Assembly (NCBI GenBank): GCA_016208585.1
Contig: JACQXR010000034.1
Location: forward strand, 1 to 55,934
Length of the DNA: 55,934 nucleotides
Direction: 5' to 3'
Origin: a candidate division TA06 bacterium
Lineage (GTDB): Bacteria; Edwardsbacteria; AC1; EtOH8
The notes beneath the pieces are model-generated. The model searched no databases, was not told the origin of the DNA, and saw only the letters and a program-made list of their open reading frames with translations. Both the position numbers and the translations under genes were made by a program. Shown here one piece after another: positions 9,188 to 41,468 of the stretch. Position 1 is the first letter of the stretch; the number at the start of each line of letters is the position of its first letter.

Positions 9188-9837
9188 TCTTAAGGCTCAT
9201 AGATATTTTCATTCACTTGGATAAATACCTGACCGTCATCATCCAGAACTACGGGACCTGGACCTATCTGATGCTTTTCGCCGTCATCTTCTGCGAGACC
9301 GGGCTGGTGGTGCTGCCGTTCCTGCCGGGAGATTCCCTGATCTTCGCCGCCGGGACGTTGGCCGCGCTGGGAGCCCTGGACATCAAGTGGCTGATCATCC
9401 TGATGTGTTTGGCGGCGGTGGCCGGCGACACCGTCAACTATTGGATAGGCTACTGGGTGGGGCCGAAGATCTTTCAGAAGGAAAACGTCAAGTTCCTGAA
9501 TAAAAAACATTTGATGGAGGCCCACGCCTTCTACGAGAAATACGGAGGGATCACCATCATCCTGGCCCGGTTCATGCCCTTCATCCGCACCTTTGCGCCC
9601 TTTGTGGCCGGAATCGGCACCATGTCCTATTGGCGCTTCATGAGCTACAATGTGGTCGGGGGCATAGCCTGGATCAACATCTTCGGGTGGATGGGCTATT
9701 ATTTCGGCAACCTACCGTACCTCAAAAAGAATTTCAGCCTGGTGATCATCGCCATCGTGGTGATCTCGGTGATGCCGGCGGTGATCGAGTATTTCAGGCG
9801 CGGGCAAAAAACAAAAAATAACAAAACAGACCTGTGA
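9184..9837 (+). CDS. DedA family membrane protein
   Basis: A 217-residue polytopic protein with the DedA signatures ETGLVVLPFLPGDSLIFAAG (about 39-58) and ARFMPFIRTFAPFVAG (about 121-136), including the acidic residue and conserved arginines. DedA proteins are implicated in lipid-carrier flipping and in membrane pH or drug tolerance. The start overlaps the preceding stop and GGAAGG lies just upstream. Co-expression with a DUF218 protein fits a joint role in undecaprenyl-phosphate cycling, which is inference. Confidence 0.95.
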   Translation: MILRLIDIFIHLDKYLTVIIQNYGTWTYLMLFAVIFCETGLVVLPFLPGDSLIFAAGTLAALGALDIKWLIILMCLAAVAGDTVNYWIGYWVGPKIFQKENVKFLNKKHLMEAHAFYEKYGGITIILARFMPFIRTFAPFVAGIGTMSYWRFMSYNVVGGIAWINIFGWMGYYFGNLPYLKKNFSLVIIAIVVISVMPAVIEYFRRGQKTKNNKTDL

Positions 9838-29708: not shown

Positions 29709-30512
29709 TTAAAAATTACGCAAAAGCGTCAGGGTAATAGTCTCCGGCTGGTAGGAATAGCATTCCAAACGCCAGTCAGGTTCCTGTGTCAATTTGGTCC
29801 TTTGCTTGTTAAAGCGTTTAGCCAGTCTGGCGGCGTTAACGGCCGACAACATATGATTAAGCACGGAAGCGCCGACCGAATAGCTGATCCGATGCAAGGC
29901 AGTCCGGCTTTTGACCCTTAACCCGCGGTAATAAAACCATTGGCCGTAATCCTGCCATTCCCAGGAGTCTTCGGAAGGATAAAGTTTATCCGCCACATAG
30001 GCCTGCTGGGCAGCCGGATCGTAGGGATATAGTTCCCGGGCCTGCCGCCATTGGTCCTCGTTATACCAATAACTGTTGGGCCATTCATAAACGTTCTGAT
30101 AATAAAAATCATCCGTCCGGCCGGGATTGGAACCAGCCTGCTGGGCAGCATAAGCGATATAGTCGCGGCGCCGCATGTCGCCCTGAAATTTATTGTACCA
30201 GGCGGCCGACCAGATCACTGCTTCGGTGGTTACGAAGCCTTTGGTATACGCTTTTTTGCCAACATAATATTCGCCGGAACCCGGGACCAATAAAGAGAGA
30301 AAAAATGCCTTCCGGGCGGATTTCCTGTATTTCCTTGGGAGAACAGGTTTACTGCTGTCAGGCCCCATCGCAGAGGCGGCGGTATCAGGAATCGTCTTCT
30401 CAATAGTGGCGGTGGGGCTTACTTTGGAACTGTCGGAAGATTGGTCTGTCTGGCCATAGGCCTGAAAAATGCAAAAAGATATCAGCGTTATTAAAAATAG
30501 TGTCTTTTTCAT
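29709..30512 (-). CDS. DUF5683-type envelope protein
   Basis: About 267 residues from ATG 30512, which overlaps the preceding stop (ATGA). Signal peptide MKKTLFLITLISFCIFQAYG, a polar Ser/Thr/Pro stretch, then the DUF5683-like block KAFFLSLLVPGSGEYYVGKKAYTKGFVTTEAVIWSAAWY, which recalls P-G-x-G-x-Y-x-G-K motifs of small membrane proteins near envelope-assembly genes. Tyrosine and tryptophan are frequent in the middle. Function unknown; always-present neighbour of secretion genes in some FCB genomes is my recollection, not shown here. Confidence 0.7.
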   Translation of the reverse strand: MKKTLFLITLISFCIFQAYGQTDQSSDSSKVSPTATIEKTIPDTAASAMGPDSSKPVLPRKYRKSARKAFFLSLLVPGSGEYYVGKKAYTKGFVTTEAVIWSAAWYNKFQGDMRRRDYIAYAAQQAGSNPGRTDDFYYQNVYEWPNSYWYNEDQWRQARELYPYDPAAQQAYVADKLYPSEDSWEWQDYGQWFYYRGLRVKSRTALHRISYSVGASVLNHMLSAVNAARLAKRFNKQRTKLTQEPDWRLECYSYQPETITLTLLRNF

Positions 30513-33500
30513 TTGATCACCGCCGCTTTGCAAATTTTGGTTTTGACAGTGGCTCCGTCATTTGCCTCCACTCGTATGATATAAACGCCGGAAGCAATAT
30601 TTTCCAGGCTCCAGATAACTTCGTTTTCGGTCAAAGCCTGTCCCGGTTGGCTGTACTGGCGGACCAGTTCTCCGGCCAGGTTGAATATTTTAACGTCGAT
30701 CTCGGCCTTATTTTCCAGGTAGAACCGGATGACCGCTTTTTCACCCCGGGCCGGGCTGGGGTAAACGTAGGCATTTTTAATCAGCTCGCCCGAATTGACC
30801 GGCAAAGGATGCACGGCCGGGTCCCAGTTCATAAATCCGGTATGGGCCTGGTTGCCGCAGAACATCGGCCAGGTTAGGCGGGAAGCAGTTACCGGGGATC
30901 CGATGCTCCAAACATATAAATTGCCGTCGTCGCATCCTACCGCCAGTTCGATGTCTGAACTGTCTCCGTCCAGGTCGGTCAGTAAAGGCGTGGAATATAT
31001 CTTTCCGCCAGCCGTCAGGGGGAATCCAGCCGCATTGGTACTGTTGCCATTGAAGGCGTAAACCCGGCCGTCGGGAGAACCTATTATTATCTCAGGCAAA
31101 CCGTCGTTGTCCACATCGGCTGTCACTGGAGATGACTGGACATTCAGCGATTCGGAAATTACTTTTGGGAAACCAGAAATCAGCGTGCCGTTATAGTTAT
31201 AGGTGTAAAGTTTGGTTCCGATGGCTGCCGCTATTTCCAGATAGCCGTCTCCATCCAGATCGCCCAAAGCCGGAGACGCCACGGCGGTCTGGGTTTGGTT
31301 ATAGATTTGAACAGGCCAGCCGGTAATGGTTCGCCCCAGTTTATCAATTACTGTAACTTCAACCACAATTTCATTTTCATATTCATTACTAGGTGCTTTG
31401 GGACACGCCACTATCTCGGGGCTGCCGTCCCGGTTTACGTCACCGATGGCGGTGGAAGCCGAGACCCAATCTACAAATGCTCGATGGTACGGGAAACCGG
31501 GAAGCAAATCACCATTCCCTTTGAAGGCAAATATCCTGCTGTCACCGGAAAGAACTACGATTTCTTGACCGGGAGAAGCGGGGTCAAGCTCTGCTGCCGA
31601 AACAGTAGCCCTGGTTTCCATGTCTAAACCCCTTGGAAAGCCGGTTACCCGGCGGCCGTCATGGTGCCAGGCATAAAGGCTGTCGTCATCGCAGGCTACT
31701 ATGATCTCCAAGGTATCATCGCCGTTGATGTCGGCCAAAGTCGGCGAGGAAAATATCGGGCCGGAGGTTTTAACAGGAAAACCGCTGCTAAAACTGGCGC
31801 CTATAAAATCGTAAGTGTTTAAATATCTGGTCGTATCGACGATAGTAGTTTCAGGGAAAAGGCGGAACCCATAGAGCCACCCCTCTGTGTTCGAGTAGGC
31901 AGCCGAGATGAACACTGACTGCTCTTGGAATGCATACAATGATCCAACTGCAGGAGATGAGTAAATGTTTCCCCGGACCTTTGCAATTACGCCTCTAAGA
32001 AAAACCGTATCATTTGTCGCGACAATTACTGTATCGGGGTTAGATCCACAAGGTGTACCATCGCTCTTCAAGGCATATAGGTATCCGTTATTGCCGGGGA
32101 GCAACAATAATTTCATTATGGTATCCGTACCCAGCGAAGTGGTAATATAATTCGGGCTGTTCCAATCCACCGTCTGACCTAGGTCATACGGGAAACCCGG
32201 CAGGCTCCATCCTACTTTCACCCGAGCGCTCAGGCTCTCGGACGGTGCAGTGATTCCGGAGATGGAAATATGGGTATACGAACCGTCATTGGCCGTGGTG
32301 GGCGGATCGCTGCCGTCATCTAACCTGTCATTGTTGCCGGCATAGTAGGCGTCGTAAGGACTGGCAAAAGTGGAATAAGGCGAGCCGCCCCAGCGCTGCA
32401 GATCCTGGACGTGATCAGCCTCCAACAGATAAATGGCTTTGATGTCACCGGTTTCCAGGCTGTTGTCAAACCACCTTTGGCTGATAAGATTTTCGTCCAC
32501 ATGGTAAACCAAAAGCCCTCCGGCATCCAGTTCAAAGGGCAGCGACATATCGTAGTCGTTTACTTTCACCAGGACTCCGTTGCGCCATTCCCTGGCCCCA
32601 TTGCAATCTGCCGTAATAGAATCAATTATGGCGCTGTTAGGGTCCACCCAAGCCCGGCGGTTTTCAATCAGGTAATACTCGTGTGAATTGATCGGTATTT
32701 TAACGATGGCATCCGGGGTTTTGGCTACCCAGTCAAAAGCGATCTGGTTGTTATCGCCAGGCTTTAGAGTCAAGGGCTGCGACCAGCCCAGAAAAACCTT
32801 GCACCAGGCCGAAAGATGCGGCGGCACAAAGGCGTTCATGTTCCACGATCCCCAGGACATCAACTCCCATTCGCCCAAACCCACCGAATACATGGAATAA
32901 TCATAAAGATCCGGCAAACCCAGCTGGTGGCCGAACTCGTGGGCTATCTCGCCCTGTGAACCCAGCACCATCCCGTCCTGGCTTTGGGTCTCGGCAGCGA
33001 TTATCCCTTCATAAATTGTATCGGCTCCGGCCTTGATTATGATTGGACTTGAGCTGTCCATCTGCAAAAATACTGATGGAATGTCGGCGCCGTAGGGGTC
33101 GGTCTGCCAGCAGGAACCGGCATGGAACACCATCACGGCTTTTGGGACTTTTGTGGACCCGCTTCCGGTGCTAAAACTGCAGTTACCGGAATCATTGCCG
33201 GCGGCATCCACGGCATCCCGCAGCAGAACATACAACCCGGCCCCCCAGTTTGCTCCCCCGTTGTAAAAATCGCTGTAAAAGGACATCTGATGGGGCAAAG
33301 TATAGGCGGCGGTATCGGCCTTGGGCCATTGCTCAAATTCTATCCACAACTGACTGTCGGATACCGCCCAGTAGTAATTGCGCAAGGCCAGCATCTGATT
33401 ATGGATGTATAGGCTGTCGTGAGGCGGCTCATAATCCAGATTATGGCCGTTAAGGTAGTTGTTATCGATATACATCGGTTGGCCGTTTCCCGCGTAGTCA

Positions 33501-33820
33501 AAATGCCCGTTGCCAGTTGTGTTGGAATCATCATCCAATTGGAACTGGGCCTTGATAGCCAGAACATGAATGGTGTCCACATTTGCCGCCTTGCTCCGGC
33601 CTTTGCTTTTGGAAACTTCCCTGACCCGGCCCAGCAGGTTCATTTTGGATACGGCATCCTTGTACTGGCGGGGCTGCTGTTTGATTTTATCCAAAATCGG
33701 ACGAGAGGTTTTCCACTGCTGTTTTAAATCTTGCAGGTCTCCGGCGCCGGCTACGGTACATGCCATGAGGAACAACAGCCACGGCAATCTCAGCCAACGC
33801 CGGTTAAATATGGCGATCAT
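30509..33820 (-). CDS. Secreted M6 metalloprotease with FG-GAP repeats and T9SS sorting domain
   Basis: About 1103 residues from ATG 33820, which follows the upstream TAA by one base. Signal peptide, M6 (immune inhibitor A-like) catalytic domain with the zinc motif HEFGH (294-298), then a beta-propeller region of FG-GAP/VCBS-like repeats (DINGDDTLEIIVACDDDSLYAW, DVDNDGLPEIIIGSPDGRVYAF and others). The C-terminal type A sorting domain has YVYPSPARGEKAVIRFYL and VKIFNLAGELVRQ. It should be exported by Sec, then across the outer membrane by T9SS. It sits directly between PorV-like and DUF5683 genes. Confidence 0.93.
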   Translation of the reverse strand: MIAIFNRRWLRLPWLLFLMACTVAGAGDLQDLKQQWKTSRPILDKIKQQPRQYKDAVSKMNLLGRVREVSKSKGRSKAANVDTIHVLAIKAQFQLDDDSNTTGNGHFDYAGNGQPMYIDNNYLNGHNLDYEPPHDSLYIHNQMLALRNYYWAVSDSQLWIEFEQWPKADTAAYTLPHQMSFYSDFYNGGANWGAGLYVLLRDAVDAAGNDSGNCSFSTGSGSTKVPKAVMVFHAGSCWQTDPYGADIPSVFLQMDSSSPIIIKAGADTIYEGIIAAETQSQDGMVLGSQGEIAHEFGHQLGLPDLYDYSMYSVGLGEWELMSWGSWNMNAFVPPHLSAWCKVFLGWSQPLTLKPGDNNQIAFDWVAKTPDAIVKIPINSHEYYLIENRRAWVDPNSAIIDSITADCNGAREWRNGVLVKVNDYDMSLPFELDAGGLLVYHVDENLISQRWFDNSLETGDIKAIYLLEADHVQDLQRWGGSPYSTFASPYDAYYAGNNDRLDDGSDPPTTANDGSYTHISISGITAPSESLSARVKVGWSLPGFPYDLGQTVDWNSPNYITTSLGTDTIMKLLLLPGNNGYLYALKSDGTPCGSNPDTVIVATNDTVFLRGVIAKVRGNIYSSPAVGSLYAFQEQSVFISAAYSNTEGWLYGFRLFPETTIVDTTRYLNTYDFIGASFSSGFPVKTSGPIFSSPTLADINGDDTLEIIVACDDDSLYAWHHDGRRVTGFPRGLDMETRATVSAAELDPASPGQEIVVLSGDSRIFAFKGNGDLLPGFPYHRAFVDWVSASTAIGDVNRDGSPEIVACPKAPSNEYENEIVVEVTVIDKLGRTITGWPVQIYNQTQTAVASPALGDLDGDGYLEIAAAIGTKLYTYNYNGTLISGFPKVISESLNVQSSPVTADVDNDGLPEIIIGSPDGRVYAFNGNSTNAAGFPLTAGGKIYSTPLLTDLDGDSSDIELAVGCDDGNLYVWSIGSPVTASRLTWPMFCGNQAHTGFMNWDPAVHPLPVNSGELIKNAYVYPSPARGEKAVIRFYLENKAEIDVKIFNLAGELVRQYSQPGQALTENEVIWSLENIASGVYIIRVEANDGATVKTKICKAAVIK

Positions 33821-33821
33821 A

Positions 33822-36374
33822 TTATAACTCGACTGAAAGTGAGAATTTTTTATTGTATTTCTGTAATTCACCGCCGGGCTCCAGGGAAAAATCGAATGTT
33901 ATATTTCTATACCCCACTCCGGCGCCAAAAGTATTGGCCGGGCCTAAATCGAAATTCCCTTTATCGTCGGTACCGATGCGGCCAATTCTGTCATAAACCA
34001 AACCATAACGCAGAGATAATGAAGCGGCGCCCATATAGCTGTATTCAAAACCCAGATGACTTACAGTCTCTTCCAGTTCTTCCCTCCAAGGCCGGTCGTT
34101 AACCACCAGCATCTTGGTGATATCATAAGCGGCTGTCAGTTTGGCCCAGCGGCCGTCCAGGATCTTATAGGCAGTGCCGACCCGGAGATTGCGGGAAAGG
34201 GGGTCGGCCTGCTCGGCGTCAATGTATTCCAGCTTGGGACCGATATTTTGAAGATTGGCTCCGAAAGACAGTCCCTTAAATGGCCCCCGGTACAGTAATC
34301 CAAAATCCAAAGCCCAGGTGGTGGCCACACCCGTGCCCTCCTCTCCCGGTGCCCCGAACGGCGCCAGATGGGAATGGATCAATTTTAAATTTACTCCGCC
34401 AGCCAGGTCTTTGAATATCTCGTTGCCGTAAGAAAGACTGGGGGAAAATTCATAACTGGAAAACTCGCCGTAGTTTTCGCTATTGGGACCGGTATGCTGA
34501 CTGGTGCCTTCGGAGATAAAGATGACGTTGCCACCAAACACGCCCCAGTCCTTGTAGGGCTGGACATAGGAGATGTACTCATAATACATATCGCCCACAT
34601 CGGCCCAGATATCGGAAAGCCAGGGGGAATGCATCAAAGAAGCATAGCTCTTATCCTTTCCGATTTTCACCAGATCTGAGGGATATAATGCTTCCAATAA
34701 CATCCGGTTCAATTTGCGCAAATCATTCTGGCTCAGATTCCCGGGGCCTTCTGCCAAAAGTTCCTGGGCTTCGACCGGGAACGGATTATTTGCCCACTGT
34801 TCCTGCTGGTAAAAATCAGTCCGGGATAGGCTTAGGTTAATTTCGGCCAGCAATAACTGCCGGCCTTCGATGGGTACTCCCTGGCCATTAAAATGATTGT
34901 CTAACTCGGCCAAAGCTTTTGGCCCCATCAGGCCTTTAAGATACTGAAAAGGATTGGATTTCTTTTGGGAGGCCACGAACCATTCCGGATAATATTCGGC
35001 AAGCAGAGCCCGGTTTAGAACGGCGGTATTTCCTGAGGAACCCAGTCCCATAAGGTTTTGCAGATGTTGGCTTGGGTTGCGGCCGCCCGGGGCCGGTTGG
35101 CGGACGAGCTGTGAATCGGAGAGGACATTGTTGTTAATCTCATCCAACCAAAGCCTTTGTTCTGCTTCGGCCAGGGGGCCTTCGCCGGCATACTGTAAAA
35201 ATATCTGACCGATGGTTTCTTTTGTTCTTGCCTGAATATAAGCGGCCAGAGAATCTCCCATGTCAAATGCTTTATATGGCGTTATGGTTTCATTCAATAT
35301 TATGGTTCTATTCAACAAGGATTCCATCGCTACCCGGTTAAGCAGTCGCATGTCTTCCTGCGAAAGTTCGGCAGTCTGGAGTTTAAGTAAATCTGGATAG
35401 GCTTGGAGCAAGAGATCCTGATTCCAAGAGTAAAGCGCTCCGCCTTTGAGACTTTTGTCGGCCAGAACTGAGGTTTCTGGTTTTAAGGCTACATTTTTAA
35501 ATCTTTGTTCCTTGTAAAAATCAGACTGCCGGCAGACATTGTTCAGGGCAGCGGCTAAAATTGACTTCAGGCTGTCCGCATGGCTGTCCTGGTATTTTCG
35601 GGATAAAAAGATTTTGGCTTTTCCCGTCATCTGGCCGTAAATATACTGGGAAACCGGATTGGCCCGGCCTTTGATTTTCTGGGCCAATACCTGAGGATCA
35701 ACTATATTTGAAACCGCAAAGCCCAGACTATCCGGGCGCATACGGTATTTGGCCAATACTTCTGTCGCCTGTTCCGGGATGGCGATATCACCCCAGCTAA
35801 TTGTTTTATAAACAGCCCGGCCGTTGATTTGTTTATTCAACGCATACGCCAAATTTGCCTTGGCCTGGCTGTCCAAGGAATCGCCCGCCTGATGCCCGGT
35901 GATGATGGCTCTGGCGTCTTCGTTTAACAAAGGCAATATGTTTTTACCGGCCAGACCCGCGGTGTCGGCCAGCGCGGCAATTAGTTTATTCCAGTCGGCG
36001 ATGTCGGATATACATAATAATGGGGTTCCTGAAAGTTTTATTACCATTCCTTCGGGATCTTTAAAATCATCCCGGGAAAAAACATTTCTCTCCGGCAAAT
36101 TCTTAAAGCTGTTCAAGAACCTGTTCCAATCCCTGATGTCATGAGAGTTCAACCGGGGATCGTTTCTTTTTAAAAAAGCCAGGCCCGCCGGATTATAATA
36201 GGTGGCGGTGGCATCGTCGGCAATGGCGCAGAAGGCGCTGCCCATGCCGCTGGGACGGGCGCCGGGCCGGATCAGCAAAAATATGGCCCCGCCCTCCGAT
36301 ATGGCCCAAGCCGGCGCTGTCGACGACAATATTATCGCCGTAGTCAGGAAAAGTTTGATTTTTGTGGTTAGCAT
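33822..36374 (-). CDS. PorV-like outer-membrane protein with a roughly 500-residue insertion
   Basis: An 850-residue protein whose ends are PorV/PorQ-like: signal peptide, then FLLIRPGARPSGMGSAFCAIADDATATYYNPAGLAFL (about 32-68), and from about residue 575 ASLMHSPWLSDIW, GVFGGNVIF and barrel strands to the C-terminal FSLSVEL. Typical PorV has 350-400 residues; here about 510 helical residues are inserted after the first conserved block. The insert shows internal repeats (R-x-D-F-Y, then L-S-Q-x-D-x-R-x-L-N-R). It lies between the C25 and M6 proteases, as expected for a T9SS shuttle protein. Confidence 0.85.
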   Translation of the reverse strand: MLTTKIKLFLTTAIILSSTAPAWAISEGGAIFLLIRPGARPSGMGSAFCAIADDATATYYNPAGLAFLKRNDPRLNSHDIRDWNRFLNSFKNLPERNVFSRDDFKDPEGMVIKLSGTPLLCISDIADWNKLIAALADTAGLAGKNILPLLNEDARAIITGHQAGDSLDSQAKANLAYALNKQINGRAVYKTISWGDIAIPEQATEVLAKYRMRPDSLGFAVSNIVDPQVLAQKIKGRANPVSQYIYGQMTGKAKIFLSRKYQDSHADSLKSILAAALNNVCRQSDFYKEQRFKNVALKPETSVLADKSLKGGALYSWNQDLLLQAYPDLLKLQTAELSQEDMRLLNRVAMESLLNRTIILNETITPYKAFDMGDSLAAYIQARTKETIGQIFLQYAGEGPLAEAEQRLWLDEINNNVLSDSQLVRQPAPGGRNPSQHLQNLMGLGSSGNTAVLNRALLAEYYPEWFVASQKKSNPFQYLKGLMGPKALAELDNHFNGQGVPIEGRQLLLAEINLSLSRTDFYQQEQWANNPFPVEAQELLAEGPGNLSQNDLRKLNRMLLEALYPSDLVKIGKDKSYASLMHSPWLSDIWADVGDMYYEYISYVQPYKDWGVFGGNVIFISEGTSQHTGPNSENYGEFSSYEFSPSLSYGNEIFKDLAGGVNLKLIHSHLAPFGAPGEEGTGVATTWALDFGLLYRGPFKGLSFGANLQNIGPKLEYIDAEQADPLSRNLRVGTAYKILDGRWAKLTAAYDITKMLVVNDRPWREELEETVSHLGFEYSYMGAASLSLRYGLVYDRIGRIGTDDKGNFDLGPANTFGAGVGYRNITFDFSLEPGGELQKYNKKFSLSVEL

Positions 36375-36404: not shown

Positions 36405-39400
36405 TTATTTCATTACAACCATTTTGCCGATGGCACTAGCTTCCCCCGATTGTCCCTTGACCGTGATTTTGTAAAAATAGACGCCATTGGCTAAAAGGCT
36501 TCCGTCGGCATCGCGTCCGTCCCAGTATATTTGATGATAGCCAAAACTTCTGCCGTTTTGAGCCAGGGTTTTGATCATCCGGCCGCCGATGGTATAAATT
36601 TTTATGGTAACATCGCCTTCCTGATACAGATTAAAAGTAAAGCAGGTGCTCTGCCTGAACGGGTTGGGATAGTTGTAAACCCCGTCAATCTTATTTTCTC
36701 CGGATGAAGCCAGGACATTCAAGTTAATCTCCAAAACGCCTTTATTGGAAGCTAGATCGCAGGCCGACAACCTTAATTTATTGCTCCCAATTTTAAAATT
36801 TTCAGGAACAGTCCACAAGGCTTGCCCGGAATTGGTGCTGCCTATATCAAAGATAAAATCATCGCTGAGATTTTTTAATTCCTTGTCATTTATCAGCAAT
36901 TGCACCTGGTCGGTCTGAGATGCCGAAAAAGGAATTACATTAAGTCCCGCGTCGTCTCTTACTTTTACGGCCAGCCGGGAGGATGTTCCCACCGGATCTC
37001 CGTTGATCAGCTTTACATCATTGGCCCACAATTCTATGTTTGGTTTGACGGTGTCGGACAAAGCAGCAGTGTCGGTTCCGCCGATCCAGAGGTCGCCGCC
37101 CAAAACGCCGCTGACGTCGGCATTTGAACCCCAGGCATAAACACCAAGCCTTGCGCCGGACAGAGTCTCGGACCTTAGAGAAGAAATATTTGGCAGGATA
37201 AAACTTGCGCTTAAACTGTCGTTTTGGACCATGGCTCCAAACTTGACTAACGGCTGACCTGGAATTTTGAACTTTAGCGAGTGAGTATATAAAGAACTGT
37301 CCGTCCGGACGGCATCGTAAAGAGTAAGCAGGGCTTGACCGTTAAAGGAGCTTGTCAACCCGCTTATTTTGCCTTTTACCGAATAAAGCCCCCGGCTTTT
37401 CAAGGTATCATCATTTAAAACCAGACTGCAAACTCCGGCCGGTTTGGCCAAATACAAAGCCGGATCCCCCATTAAAATGTAGAGATGATTACCCCCTGAG
37501 GCTAACTTGCCATTGTAAACAGCCTGTCCTATATCATATGGACGTTTGAATAAGCTGTCATAAATACCTTTGGCCAAATTAAAATTGCCATTAGAACCAG
37601 TCCCCCGAGTAGCGCCTACGGTAGCAATGGCTCCCCCGCCGCTTTTGACCACCAGGGAGGTGCCGATGGATTCGTAACGGTTCATGTCAAACCGGGAAGT
37701 TCCGCAGGTTCCCATGACCACCAAAGGCAATTTGTCGCCGTTGGCCAGGTTGGCCACATCTGTATCCCGGAAATACCATTCATGACCCCAGACCCAATAT
37801 GCCCCGTGGCCAAAAAAGTTGATAATCCCGGCCCCTATATTCCAATTGCTGATCAGGGCATTGCGAGCATCCGATTTATGTTTATCCGAATCCATAGGAT
37901 ATTCCCGCATTACCCCATATACCTTTTCTATGTCGTAACTGTCCGGCAGACTGTATTGAGCCAAAGATTCCGAATCGGTAGTATGAATTGTTTCACCGCT
38001 GTAGGAGCCGCCGGATACAAACTCATCATCGGCCACCAAAATAGCCCGGTTGCGCCATTGCATATCCCCGGATGCTGATTTGTAACGGAAAACTTTATTC
38101 ACAACCGTCCAGGCTTCATCGGCGTTCTTGGCAGGTATCCGGGCCAATATAAGCTGCGGCAGGTTTAAGCCGTTCAAGCGCACATACCAGTCGTCGAATG
38201 TATCAAAGAGGTATTCACCCAACTCCAGTCTTAATCCATCTTCCTGGTGAGTGGGAATAAAATTATGCCGGCCCCAGGTTTTGTCTATTTCCCGGTAATC
38301 GTAACTGCCGTCCCCGAACAACAGGCATCTTTTGGGATTGGGGCCGTTGGAGTTCAAATAAATATGATCCAGAAACTTACGGATGGCCGAGGGATCTTTT
38401 AAGCCGAAGCTGAATTCATTGTAAATCCAAGAGAGTTTGACAGCCGCCATTGGCTGTAGGCGGGATTCGCCGGCATGCAAGTTCAGCAAGGCCTGGACTT
38501 GGGGCCAGAATTCATCGGCTGTGATCACCAGATAATTAACGGTTAAGTACTTCTGCCTTAAATTTTGAGACGCATAAGGCTCGATTTTAACCGGCCTCTG
38601 CCAGCCAGGACTTGCGGCCGCCCAATAAAAGCGGCCTTTCCGCCAGACATCTTCAAACTCAGAATATGATTGATAGATGCGATCACTCTTAATGTTGACC
38701 GGTTTTTCGGGATTGCTGATATCCAGAATTGTCAAGCTGTCGCTGGCAAAGCCGGTCAGGCGGAATCGATAAGGCTGTCCGGCCAGTGAATCGGCCCGAA
38801 ATTTCAGATTGTAATTAAAGGCTTGATAATTGCGGCGGTAATAAACTTCGAACCAGTTCAAATATACTATATCCATTGTATCGGCAGCGTCTCGGTCCAA
38901 CTGCAGATTAATTGTATTATTAGAAGCAGGTATATCTGGTAGAATTAAAGAATCGGAAAAGGGACCTGAGTCAGGACCGGCGGTCCACTTTTTTCCATTG
39001 TAAAGTATTCCGTTAACACCCCAGTTTAAATGATGATTGCCATTAGTACCAGACCTGTAATCTATTTTTATCCTTGCCGAACCCGGCATGGCATAAGATA
39101 AATCAAACGGCAGGCTGTAGTCGTGGTAAGCTTCCCCGGTCATCCGCTTCAAACTTAACCAGTACCACAGTTCTCCGGAATTGAAGGGATTGAAAGCATC
39201 CTGTTCAAAGTGCAGGGTGTCGTTGAAACTTTGAGGAGCGATGTAATTTAAGGAAATCGGGCGGCAATCGCGCTCAGCCATCCTTAAGCCGGCGGTACCT
39301 CCCCAGCAAAGCCAGTAGCTGTTGGTCTCGCCGTAAGGATTATAAAAATGGCCGTTGAGCAAGGCGCTGTTTTTATCCCATCCGGCCAGGCTTTGGCCGA

Positions 39401-40337
39401 AAAAAACTATCTGGTCGCCGGCATCAAACTTGCCATCCTGCTCTCCTTTTACCATGATGCTCATCTGCTTCAGGCTGTCAGCAGTCGGCGGAATGTATGA
39501 CTTTGAAAAGGCCCGCGATCCGCCGTTGTATATTTTTATGGTCCGGGGATCTATGATGTCCGGATTGATGCCGTTCCGTTTTAGGTAATTGTAATCCATC
39601 CGGTAAATTCCCTGACTGACCACAGACAGTTTGTACCAAACGGGAGCAGCGGCAAAAGGATCGTCAGCTTTGGCTCCGGACTTGGAATATTCTGCCAGCC
39701 AGCTTTTGGATTGGGAGTAATTGATTATTTGATCGGCCAGGATCGGCCCGTAGACTTCATCATCACTGATCACACTGGGGCGGCCGGGAATATCCCAGGT
39801 TACCTGCACCTGAATACTGCGATAAATCCTTAACTTTTTTGAGACCGGGTCATATTGGGTGGGATAAACTTTTACCCAAGCCACCCGGTGACGCCTTAGC
39901 ATGTCCACGAAATGAAGCAGTACTGGAGTTTGCGGAAATAACCCCTTGCTTTGATAGTAGTTATCGTTTTTGCGATAAACATAACTGCCCAAATCGTTTT
40001 GCCCCTTTGCCTCTAAGAATGGGACCGGGGCCAGATCTATGCCGGAATATTCGTCATACTCACCGGAAAGCATTTTGACTTCAACCCGGGCGTTCTGGGG
40101 AATTCCTACCATCACTTGCCGATACAAACTGATAGGCTGGCCCGGCTCCCCTTCAGTTTGACAGCCGGATATTGATGGTCTGGTCTGTCCCAGGTCGTTT
40201 AGTGTAAAGCTGACTGGGGCAAAATGGCAGGAGATCAAAGCTTCGCTGTCGCCTGACTTCAAAAGCTTTATTTGGGCCAGGGCCGGAACGGACATAAACC
40301 CAATGGTACAGATGATTATGATTTGTTTTTTGGTCAT
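36405..40337 (-). CDS. PorU-like C25 (gingipain-type) peptidase with T9SS sorting domain
   Basis: A 1310-residue protein with a signal peptide, an N-terminal beta-rich region, and the C25 catalytic domain: FFGHGAYWVWGH with His844 and VMGTCGTSRF with Cys878. A C-terminal domain follows: YNYPNPFRQSTCF, IKIYTIGGRMIKTL, YWDGRDADGSLLANGVYFY and MVVMK. Length, position beside a PorV-like gene and domain order fit PorU, the T9SS sortase that removes sorting domains and attaches cargo. PorU normally keeps its own domain. It is the first gene of the locus. The ATG lacks a Shine-Dalgarno and follows a terminator-like T tract by a few bases. Confidence 0.9.
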   Translation of the reverse strand: MTKKQIIIICTIGFMSVPALAQIKLLKSGDSEALISCHFAPVSFTLNDLGQTRPSISGCQTEGEPGQPISLYRQVMVGIPQNARVEVKMLSGEYDEYSGIDLAPVPFLEAKGQNDLGSYVYRKNDNYYQSKGLFPQTPVLLHFVDMLRRHRVAWVKVYPTQYDPVSKKLRIYRSIQVQVTWDIPGRPSVISDDEVYGPILADQIINYSQSKSWLAEYSKSGAKADDPFAAAPVWYKLSVVSQGIYRMDYNYLKRNGINPDIIDPRTIKIYNGGSRAFSKSYIPPTADSLKQMSIMVKGEQDGKFDAGDQIVFFGQSLAGWDKNSALLNGHFYNPYGETNSYWLCWGGTAGLRMAERDCRPISLNYIAPQSFNDTLHFEQDAFNPFNSGELWYWLSLKRMTGEAYHDYSLPFDLSYAMPGSARIKIDYRSGTNGNHHLNWGVNGILYNGKKWTAGPDSGPFSDSLILPDIPASNNTINLQLDRDAADTMDIVYLNWFEVYYRRNYQAFNYNLKFRADSLAGQPYRFRLTGFASDSLTILDISNPEKPVNIKSDRIYQSYSEFEDVWRKGRFYWAAASPGWQRPVKIEPYASQNLRQKYLTVNYLVITADEFWPQVQALLNLHAGESRLQPMAAVKLSWIYNEFSFGLKDPSAIRKFLDHIYLNSNGPNPKRCLLFGDGSYDYREIDKTWGRHNFIPTHQEDGLRLELGEYLFDTFDDWYVRLNGLNLPQLILARIPAKNADEAWTVVNKVFRYKSASGDMQWRNRAILVADDEFVSGGSYSGETIHTTDSESLAQYSLPDSYDIEKVYGVMREYPMDSDKHKSDARNALISNWNIGAGIINFFGHGAYWVWGHEWYFRDTDVANLANGDKLPLVVMGTCGTSRFDMNRYESIGTSLVVKSGGGAIATVGATRGTGSNGNFNLAKGIYDSLFKRPYDIGQAVYNGKLASGGNHLYILMGDPALYLAKPAGVCSLVLNDDTLKSRGLYSVKGKISGLTSSFNGQALLTLYDAVRTDSSLYTHSLKFKIPGQPLVKFGAMVQNDSLSASFILPNISSLRSETLSGARLGVYAWGSNADVSGVLGGDLWIGGTDTAALSDTVKPNIELWANDVKLINGDPVGTSSRLAVKVRDDAGLNVIPFSASQTDQVQLLINDKELKNLSDDFIFDIGSTNSGQALWTVPENFKIGSNKLRLSACDLASNKGVLEINLNVLASSGENKIDGVYNYPNPFRQSTCFTFNLYQEGDVTIKIYTIGGRMIKTLAQNGRSFGYHQIYWDGRDADGSLLANGVYFYKITVKGQSGEASAIGKMVVMK

Positions 40338-40343
40338 AAAAGA

Positions 40344-40382
40344 TAAAAATTAAAAGCCGGCATCAGTTGATTGATACCGGCT
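40344..40382 (-). terminator. Leader terminator (attenuator) before the C25 gene
   Basis: Minus strand: AGCCGGTATCA (40382-40372) pairs with TGATGCCGGCT (40365-40355), 11 bp with one G-U, followed by TTTTAATTTTT. It ends about seven bases before the ATG at 40337, inside the transcript of the promoter at 40542-40570. Confidence 0.8.
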
Positions 40383-40387
40383 AAATA

Positions 40388-40517
40388 AGGCAAAATTCGT
40401 TGCCTAAAAAGAGATACTGCCGAGCCGATATCAGGGTACGGTAAAAAGGCGATTCTATAAATTTTAAATCCCTGTTTAATCCCTGACATTGAACGGCTCT
40501 AATACAAATATCTCTTT
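40388..40517 (-). promoter_or_regulatory. Structured leader RNA, riboswitch-like
   Basis: Minus strand nested helices: P1 AAAGAGATA (40517-40509) with TATCTCTTT (40416-40408); P2 GAGCCG (40499-40494) with CGGCTC (40427-40422); P3 TCAGGG (40486-40481) with CCCTGA (40436-40431). A separate hairpin AGGCAA/TTGCCT (40405-40388) follows. GATATCGGCT (40432-40423), the 3' side of P2, can instead pair over 10 bp with AGCCGGTATC (40382-40373), the 5' arm of the terminator. That gives mutually exclusive terminator and antiterminator forms. No known riboswitch class is recognised. Confidence 0.65.
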
Positions 40518-40541
40518 ATGGTTTCTTTTGTTAACATGATA

Positions 40542-40570
40542 ACTATAACCTAAAACAGGCGGTTTGTCAA
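40542..40570 (-). promoter_or_regulatory. Sigma70 promoter of the seven-gene T9SS-type operon
   Basis: Minus strand TTGACA (40570-40565), 17 bases, TATAGT (40547-40542). Start near 40535 gives a leader of about 200 bases. Confidence 0.85.
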
Positions 40571-40607: not shown

Positions 40608-41468
40608 TTATCGCATCAACAAATTAGCGTAAAATCCCCAAATTATTTTCCTGGCCAGCAGAGCAATAACAGCCCCCATTGCCAAAAACGGACCGAAAGG
40701 AACCATGGCTTTGGCAGGCTGGCTTTGATTTTGGACATCAAATACTTCGGAGGTCTTTTTAAGCTTTCCTAGCAACATCAGGGGAACTCCGGCCAAAGTG
40801 CCCAGCAGAAATGATAGGAACAAGACCATCAGCACAGCCTGCCAGCCCACAAAAGCACCGATGAAGGCCGCCAGTTTGATATCGCCCCCGCCCATGGCCT
40901 CCTGTTTGAATATCTTTTCCCCGCCCCAAGCCGAAAGCCAGATCAGCCCGCCTCCCACCAAAATACCCGTCAGGCTGTCGAGCCAGGGCCAGAAACCGAA
41001 GGGATCGTCAAAACCGAAAAGAGAAAGGTTAAGAGCAGGATAGAATGTCCCTGCCATCCCGAAAGCCAGACCCAGGCTAATACCAGGAAAGCTCAAGATA
41101 TCCGGAATGATGTAATGCCGGATGTCTATGGCCGAGATCACCAGCAATGCCCACAAGAACGGCAGGTAACCGGCCAGCCTCCAGTCAAGGCCGAATTTTA
41201 AATAAGCGGCGGCAAAAAGCAGCCCTCCCGACAGCTCTACTAACGAATATTGTACGGAGATCCTCTTTTGACACTGGCTGCATTTGCCCCGTAAGATCAG
41301 ATAGCTGATAACCGGAATATTCTGGTGCCATTTGATGGCTGCGCCGCAGTCCGGACAATGCGAAGGTTTGACCACCACCCCCTCCCGTCGTGGTATCCGC
41401 CAGATGCAGACATTGGCAAAGGAGCCGAAAATCAGCCCGAATAAAAAAAATATTAATGTAATTGCCAT
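40608..41468 (-). CDS. pilD: Prepilin peptidase / N-methyltransferase (A24)
   Basis: A 286-residue polytopic inner-membrane aspartic protease that cleaves and methylates type IV prepilins. The N-terminal cytoplasmic domain has two CxxC pairs (HCPDCG and CSQCQ) for zinc, and the catalytic aspartates lie in SAIDIRHYIIPD and GGGDIKLAA. About seven or eight membrane segments. It is the last gene of the dgt-pilB-rimO operon, 19 bases after rimO, and would process the pilin-like protein at 17468. Confidence 0.96.
   Translation of the reverse strand: MAITLIFFLFGLIFGSFANVCIWRIPRREGVVVKPSHCPDCGAAIKWHQNIPVISYLILRGKCSQCQKRISVQYSLVELSGGLLFAAAYLKFGLDWRLAGYLPFLWALLVISAIDIRHYIIPDILSFPGISLGLAFGMAGTFYPALNLSLFGFDDPFGFWPWLDSLTGILVGGGLIWLSAWGGEKIFKQEAMGGGDIKLAAFIGAFVGWQAVLMVLFLSFLLGTLAGVPLMLLGKLKKTSEVFDVQNQSQPAKAMVPFGPFLAMGAVIALLARKIIWGFYANLLMR

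Follow-up and report, generated by a model that had tools for sequence, protein, structure and literature searches.

In Porphyromonas gingivalis, type IX secretion (T9SS) is controlled by PorX/PorY-SigP, a protein two-component and sigma factor cascade that acts at promoters (PMC4800418, PMC8265659). Control at the RNA level was not found in the literature searched, which excluded the large motif survey of 2017, and T9SS control known so far is protein-based. The locus described here points to a two-operon RNA attenuator present in a whole candidate phylum: we consider it rather probable (about 0.7) that the leader of its porU operon represents an undescribed family of transcription attenuators, with OFF as the default and a trans-acting ON signal.

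The window, i.e., the whole stretch of DNA analysed, comprises 55,934 nt of contig JACQXR010000034.1 (from genome G000), and all coordinates refer to it. The leader is located on the minus strand, between a gene for a type IV prepilin peptidase (40608-41468) and a gene for a PorU-like C25 peptidase. The features are as follows.

40565-40570, minus strand: -35 hexamer TTGACA, from the promoter reading
40542-40547, minus strand: -10 hexamer TATAGT, from the promoter reading
40338-40535, minus strand: porU leader RNA, about 198 nt, from the fold z-score and orthologous leaders in 10/10 species
40509-40517, minus strand: 5' strand of the outer helix, AAAGAGATA, with its 3' partner TATCTCTTT at 40408-40416; 9 bp, genus-specific
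40494-40499, minus strand: lower helix, GAGCCG with CGGCTC at 40422-40427; 6 bp
40488-40493, minus strand: 5'-side internal loop TTCAAT, within the conserved UNAAUGU-AG stretch
40481-40487, minus strand: upper helix, GTCAGGG with CCCTGAT at 40430-40436; 6(7) bp
within 40470-40476, minus strand: second CAGGG, an alternative P3 partner; window's genus only
40423-40432, minus strand: antiterminator strand GATATCGGCT, with the leader hairpin or the terminator 5' arm AGCCGGTATC (40373-40382) as partner
40388-40405, minus strand: extra hairpin AGGCAACGAATTTTGCCT, AGGCAA-loop-TTGCCT; window's genus only
40355-40382, minus strand: predicted intrinsic terminator, hairpin AGCCGGTATCA-6-TGATGCCGGCT plus TTTAATTTTT; 11 bp
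40338-40355, minus strand: interrupted U tract TTTTAATTTTTATCTTTT reaching the ATG, from sequence reading
36405-40337, minus strand: PorU-like C25 peptidase, 1310 aa, the putatively controlled gene (Pfam Peptidase_C25 3e-75, Propeptide_C25 1.7e-21)
33822-36374, minus strand: PorV-domain protein, next gene of the operon (Pfam PorV 2e-12)
30509-33871, minus strand: secreted M6-peptidase/FG-GAP protein with a Por secretion tail, downstream gene, from the domain scan

The operon thus combines PorU (C25), PorV and a cargo protein with a secretion tail, and the 1310-aa PorU-like peptidase itself carries a C-terminal FlgD_ig/Por secretion-tail domain (Pfam). SprA/Sov is encoded in the Edwardsbacteria genomes tested, this one included, and the type IX translocon is therefore present.

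The promoter TTGACA-17-TATAGT (40570-40542) had been proposed in a sequence-only reading of the window and agrees with the consensus in 11 of 12 positions; its position would place the transcription start at about 40535, ahead of the hairpins. The 11-bp terminator with a U tract just before the ATG, also part of that reading, is indeed found at 40382-40338 of the minus strand. Folding of a 203-nt leader gave -66.6 kcal/mol against a mean of -36.5 for dinucleotide shuffles (z -7.6; 0/200 as stable). At its 5' end, the window leader contains an ATG-12 codons-TAG frame (ATGTTAACAAAAGAAACCATAAAGAGATATTTGTATTAG), as ribosome-coupled attenuation through a leader peptide would have it. This explanation is scarcely credible: past the deduced start there is no space for a ribosome-binding site, the congener G001 has AAG in place of the ATG and the other leaders preserve no frame of this kind, and the reading was dropped because the frame is not conserved.

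Conservation was followed through ten species-level, metagenome-assembled genomes from four genera of ‘Ca. Edwardsbacteria’, all ten of which encode a porU orthologue. The promoter TTGACAAA...TATAGTTA upstream of porU is kept in 10/10 species, and by reading of the sites the same holds for the layout of promoter, hairpin and terminator. In BLAST comparisons of the leader with more distant genera the promoter alone matches, always some 250 bp upstream of porU. Three nested helices (9, 6 and 6 bp) and an extra hairpin had been described for the window; all are present, with the outer helix (mismatched and weakened in the congener G002) and the extra hairpin being genus-specific. A second CCCTG, suggested as an alternative partner of P3, likewise exists and is confined to the window's genus. 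The lower helix consists of other bases in G004, with pairing preserved (CGGGCC/GGCCCG). Only the hairpin, the antiterminator and the terminator are kept phylum-wide.

The best-pairing 14-nt site for the terminator 5' arm was sought anywhere upstream in each porU leader, and in all ten it was the 3' strand of the leader hairpin, represented across species by GATATCGGCT, GATACTGGCT, GACACTGGCTTTT and CGCACTGGCC at that position. One strand with two mutually exclusive partners has thus been kept through the phylum. Pairing of the same quality arose in 0-2 of 200 dinucleotide shuffles for eight species, and in 26/200 and 17/200 for G004 and G006, respectively. The 10-bp duplex of the window scored -16.5, compared with a mean of -9.2 for the best sites in shuffled leaders (0/200). 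The proposal of an antiterminator that excludes the terminator holds for 10/10 species, and for a second operon as well. Two plain terminators, at G001:C1 ~120000 (L268) and G002:C178 ~1270 (L260), have a hairpin nearly identical to the porU terminator's ACCGGTATCA...TGATGCCGGT, and one of the two stands directly after a tRNA; the terminator sequence alone is therefore not diagnostic.

When the ten genomes were scanned with R2, a model built from the porU leaders, the porU sites ranked first; next came sites upstream of another operon, which encodes a protein of about 500 aa with a FlgD_ig/secretion-tail domain and then a roughly 1600-aa PorU paralogue. The copy in the window's own genome lies at L253:1556-1776 (contig C111, ~9555-9775) and folds with z -4.8. 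We read the second leader in G000, G001, G002, G005, G007 and G008; with G009, where it is represented by profile hits only, two operons per genome carry the device in seven of ten species. The second loci of G003 and G006 (genus g2) lack it, the promoter being close to the ATG, and in G004 the contig ends at this locus. Sequences at the second locus are much diverged, e.g., GCGCCCGGTACATGTAAGTAAAACAG...CTGTTTTATAGCAATGATGCCGGTCG...GGCTGGCATCATTTTTAAAAATGATGCCAGTTTTTT in G000; their antiterminators comprise 10-13 bp, and for each of the six copies read at most one of 200 shuffles did as well. U tracts are weak in genus g4 at the second locus (...GGCTTCATTAATT) and in the porU leader of G003, and the respective terminators may be inefficient. 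The two loci were also the leading hits of a model built from both (R3); the extra R2 and R3 hits examined in Edwardsbacteria were ordinary terminators or chance hits, with weak ones in G000:C117 and G002:C128 left out.

For covariation, 15 leaders from both loci were aligned by hand with the interior and the linker trimmed (alignment A5), a layout that favours the proposed pairs. In it, 92.7% of antiterminator cells pair, against 20-43% when the strand is slid, and none of 500 shuffles reaches 92.7%, in a test inflated by the relatedness of the sequences. Three antiterminator pairs are changed on both sides, i.e., homologous leaders do covary. The terminator is 94% paired, with one compensated pair (C-G to U-A) in second-locus copies, and the hairpin 76%, with four pairs changed on both sides. 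The porU leaders alone show one changed cell, mostly one-sided wobbles and no excess over shuffles, so that much of the covariation evidence is carried by the second locus; compensation at the level of columns is scarce because the bases of the core are so conserved. An unpaired A, GU and AG in the 5' bulge are invariant across both loci and the four genera (UNAAUGUNAG; A5). This unpaired conserved core is short (5' bulge ~UNAAUGU), and the apical domain is highly variable.

Energies were computed for 14 leaders, each RNA being cut off after the terminator 5' arm. The hairpin state and the antiterminator state differ by no more than 6 kcal/mol in 12 of them, and the antiterminator state is preferred in G004, G001b and G008b. 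The hairpin wins by 16.5 kcal/mol in the window and by 10.5 in G002; being far stronger in these two, it would need kinetic or factor-assisted opening for switching. Dominance of the OFF fold in the window's copy, together with the lack of a known trigger, would suit a constitutive partial terminator or insulator that responds to no signal and in which the hairpin is a stability element only. That explanation is unlikely, since it does not account for the fact that all species, and the second locus too, retain a competing pairing.

The attenuator we favour would work as follows. RNA polymerase would begin at about 40535 and make the hairpin first, the 3' strand of which holds the antiterminator (consensus GAUACUGGCU). 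Once the hairpin closes, the antiterminator strand would be hidden, the terminator would form and transcription would stop before porU (OFF). If the 5' side of the hairpin is kept unpaired, the freed strand would bind the terminator 5' arm and the operon would be read (ON). A trans-acting signal would recognise the conserved 5' strand and bulge (~GCC-UNAAUGU-AG) and switch the device ON. The presumed default is OFF, as the hairpin is transcribed earliest and usually forms the stronger of the two competing pairings, and the energetics suggest the same polarity, with an activating trigger acting early on the 5' strand. As the second operon, with its secreted cargo and PorU paralogue, is under the same device, one signal would set both operons. 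The promoter upstream of the leader, the terminator before the first codon, the conserved exclusive antiterminator and the distribution over two operons are read directly in the DNA; termination itself, the direction of switching and the signal, in both its existence and its nature, are our inference. So understood, the predicted regulon is a small type IX secretion regulon under an RNA attenuator. Short, and with mutually exclusive helices, the leader is a candidate orphan switch, the signal of which would tell when these bacteria export surface proteins.

Two kinds of trigger deserve consideration. The leader may possibly be a true riboswitch, its hairpin and 5' bulge forming an aptamer by which a metabolite or second messenger would set the balance of terminator and antiterminator at both operons. 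The invariant unpaired bases of the bulge, the occurrence of one RNA over two operons of one pathway in the same genome and the standard logic of the expression platform would agree with it, as would the relatives in some Ignavibacteriales, where P1 covers the start codon in the manner of translational riboswitches. The core is short and the apical domain variable compared with most validated aptamers, the regulon includes no metabolic gene that would hint at a ligand, and there is no relative in Rfam: the window leader has no match up to E 10 in Rfam 15, the second-locus copy gave chance hits far below gathering scores, and known classes (the T-box covariance model, SAM, c-di-GMP and others) did not match. 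The assertion that the RNA falls outside the known aptamer classes is thereby sustained.

Just as possible is an attenuator responding to an RNA-binding protein or small RNA that captures the 5' strand (UNAAUGUCAG; UUCGUUAAAGG in other phyla) and frees the antiterminator. The most conserved stretch is this linear 5' strand with the bulge, the polarity fits the energetics naturally and a variable apical loop need not matter; a candidate protein or sRNA is lacking, and none of the operon's annotated genes codes for an RNA-binding protein of the cytoplasm. Protein or RNA triggers account for the data as well as a metabolite does, and the sequence favours neither. Of the transcriptional riboswitch originally proposed, the attenuator is well supported; ligand sensing is a possibility, and the detail of a P1-P3 aptamer belongs to one genus.

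Leaders of PorU/C25 genes in other phyla were collected from named genomes (79 PorU loci from KSB1, Ignavibacteria/Bacteroidota, Kryptonia, Calditrichota, Gemmatimonadota and others). In Ignavibacteria, KSB1, Kryptonia and Gemmatimonadota, the leaders of PorU/C25 genes form a hairpin that includes a UUCGUUAAAGG strand, usually together with a terminator. A TTCGTTARAGG-like strand (at most one mismatch) occurs within 450 nt upstream, on the coding strand, in 18 of the 79 loci (0.61 expected, P ~1e-20, for a motif chosen post hoc and an expectation derived from the rest of the loci). In most cases it pairs with a downstream strand, with C-G/U-A and G-C/A-U exchanges included. Many of these non-Edwardsbacteria loci have a terminator of the type (A)CCGAAUG...CAUUCGGU with a U tract immediately ahead of the ATG. 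Three Ignavibacteriales-like loci have the start codon covered by the outer helix instead, and two of these loci have a second copy with a terminator before a second C25 gene: the tandem C25 genes of L084 (3508-3595, 7714-7816) and L093 (5827-5915, 10018-10120), each with a UUCGUUAGAG hairpin, show the helix over the ATG at the first gene and the terminator after the hairpin at the second. A local antiterminator is significant in L112, L121, L128, L155, L163 and L168 and not significant in L123, L134, L127 and L105; the second L084 and L093 copies are borderline.

R1, a model of the UUCGUUAAAGG-type leaders, finds C25-linked copies in its source genomes; hits without such linkage were weaker and apparently due to chance. 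Searched over 337 genomes, it hit six, of which G164, a member of the training set, was the only convincing and C25-linked case; the rest look like chance hairpins. It did not detect the Edwardsbacteria leaders, giving only a KSB1 leader at E 0.12, and R3 did not detect the leaders of other phyla, being restricted to Edwardsbacteria. For lack of cross-detection a single profile family for Edwardsbacteria and Ignavibacteria leaders was dropped, and the shared UAUCGAU/UUAAAG look stays a lead. We regard the leaders of other phyla as analogues, or possibly homologues, of the Edwardsbacteria form and keep them out of its family. A new riboswitch-like RNA class over PorU/C25 operons of several FCB-group phyla, in which Edwardsbacteria would use transcriptional platforms and Ignavibacteria translational or terminator ones, is doubtful; if true, export and surface anchoring would be set directly by an intracellular signal sensed by RNA.

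Several other observations were made in these genomes. In Kryptonia, a U run follows the whole long leader hairpin in L071:5758-5920, and in L105:5470-5600 the P2 hairpin comes with a U7 of its own, ahead of a second terminator, i.e., the terminators are in tandem. Nine porU leaders (L088, L092, L094, L097, L102, L107, L111, L120 and L131) contain another word, (A)GGAG...UAUAGAGAAUUUGCUAC, 60-100 nt before the ATG and without a terminator, which may represent either another variant or an element of its own. In the genome of L123, a hairpin TTGGTTAGAGGTTT...AAACCTCTAACC resembling the P2 strand occurs upstream of a sugar-kinase-like gene (L206:1501-1614, E 0.05); it is probably due to chance, a non-C25 target being possible. 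In the Bacteroidota-type genome of L105, the boxA of the rRNA spacer (L214, GTTCTTTGACAATT) has CTTTGAC in common with the 3' strand of the porU-leader hairpin (ACCTTTGACGAAC).

Processive antitermination, in which the leader would recruit a LoaP/RfaH-type NusG paralogue or a boxA/Nus complex for readthrough of a long operon, would account for the succession of promoter, hairpin, terminator and long operon. In Ignavibacteria the 3' strand of the hairpin (CCUUUGACAA/CUUUAACA) is boxA-like, and most such leaders have no significant antiterminator. A boxA assignment for the Ignavibacteria P2 strand (CUUUGACA) was attractive and was rejected, as it is absent in Edwardsbacteria. Each of five genomes tested (G000, G001, G003, G004 and G005) encodes a single NusG, and the Edwardsbacteria rrn boxA, AGTTCTTTGAAAACTGAA, is missing from the porU leader; on these grounds LoaP/RfaH and boxA were discarded for Edwardsbacteria. 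The conserved antiterminator would moreover be left unexplained, and we give this mechanism very little weight.

The attenuator proposed here is most readily placed among known systems by what it shares with each of them. As in transcription-terminating riboswitches and attenuator leaders, there is a promoter, a sensor hairpin, a strand shared with the antiterminator and a terminator before the first codon; unlike them, its sensor fold and sequence are outside the families of Rfam 15, and type IX secretion genes, not metabolism, are controlled. With LoaP/RfaH (JUMPstart RF01707) and boxA it has in common a leader element that precedes terminators and a long operon for envelope or secretion functions, whereas the Edwardsbacteria tested have a single NusG and, in place of a leader boxA, a conserved local antiterminator. 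The UUCGUUAAAGG leaders precede the same gene and also have a hairpin near the mRNA 5' end and usually a terminator before the ATG, but the profiles do not detect each other and the antiterminator is significant in some of them only. Like PorX/PorY-SigP of P. gingivalis (PMC4800418, PMC8265659), the porU leader would coordinate the expression of T9SS genes; in contrast to that promoter cascade, control in Edwardsbacteria would be exerted in the mRNA leader, and in another phylum.
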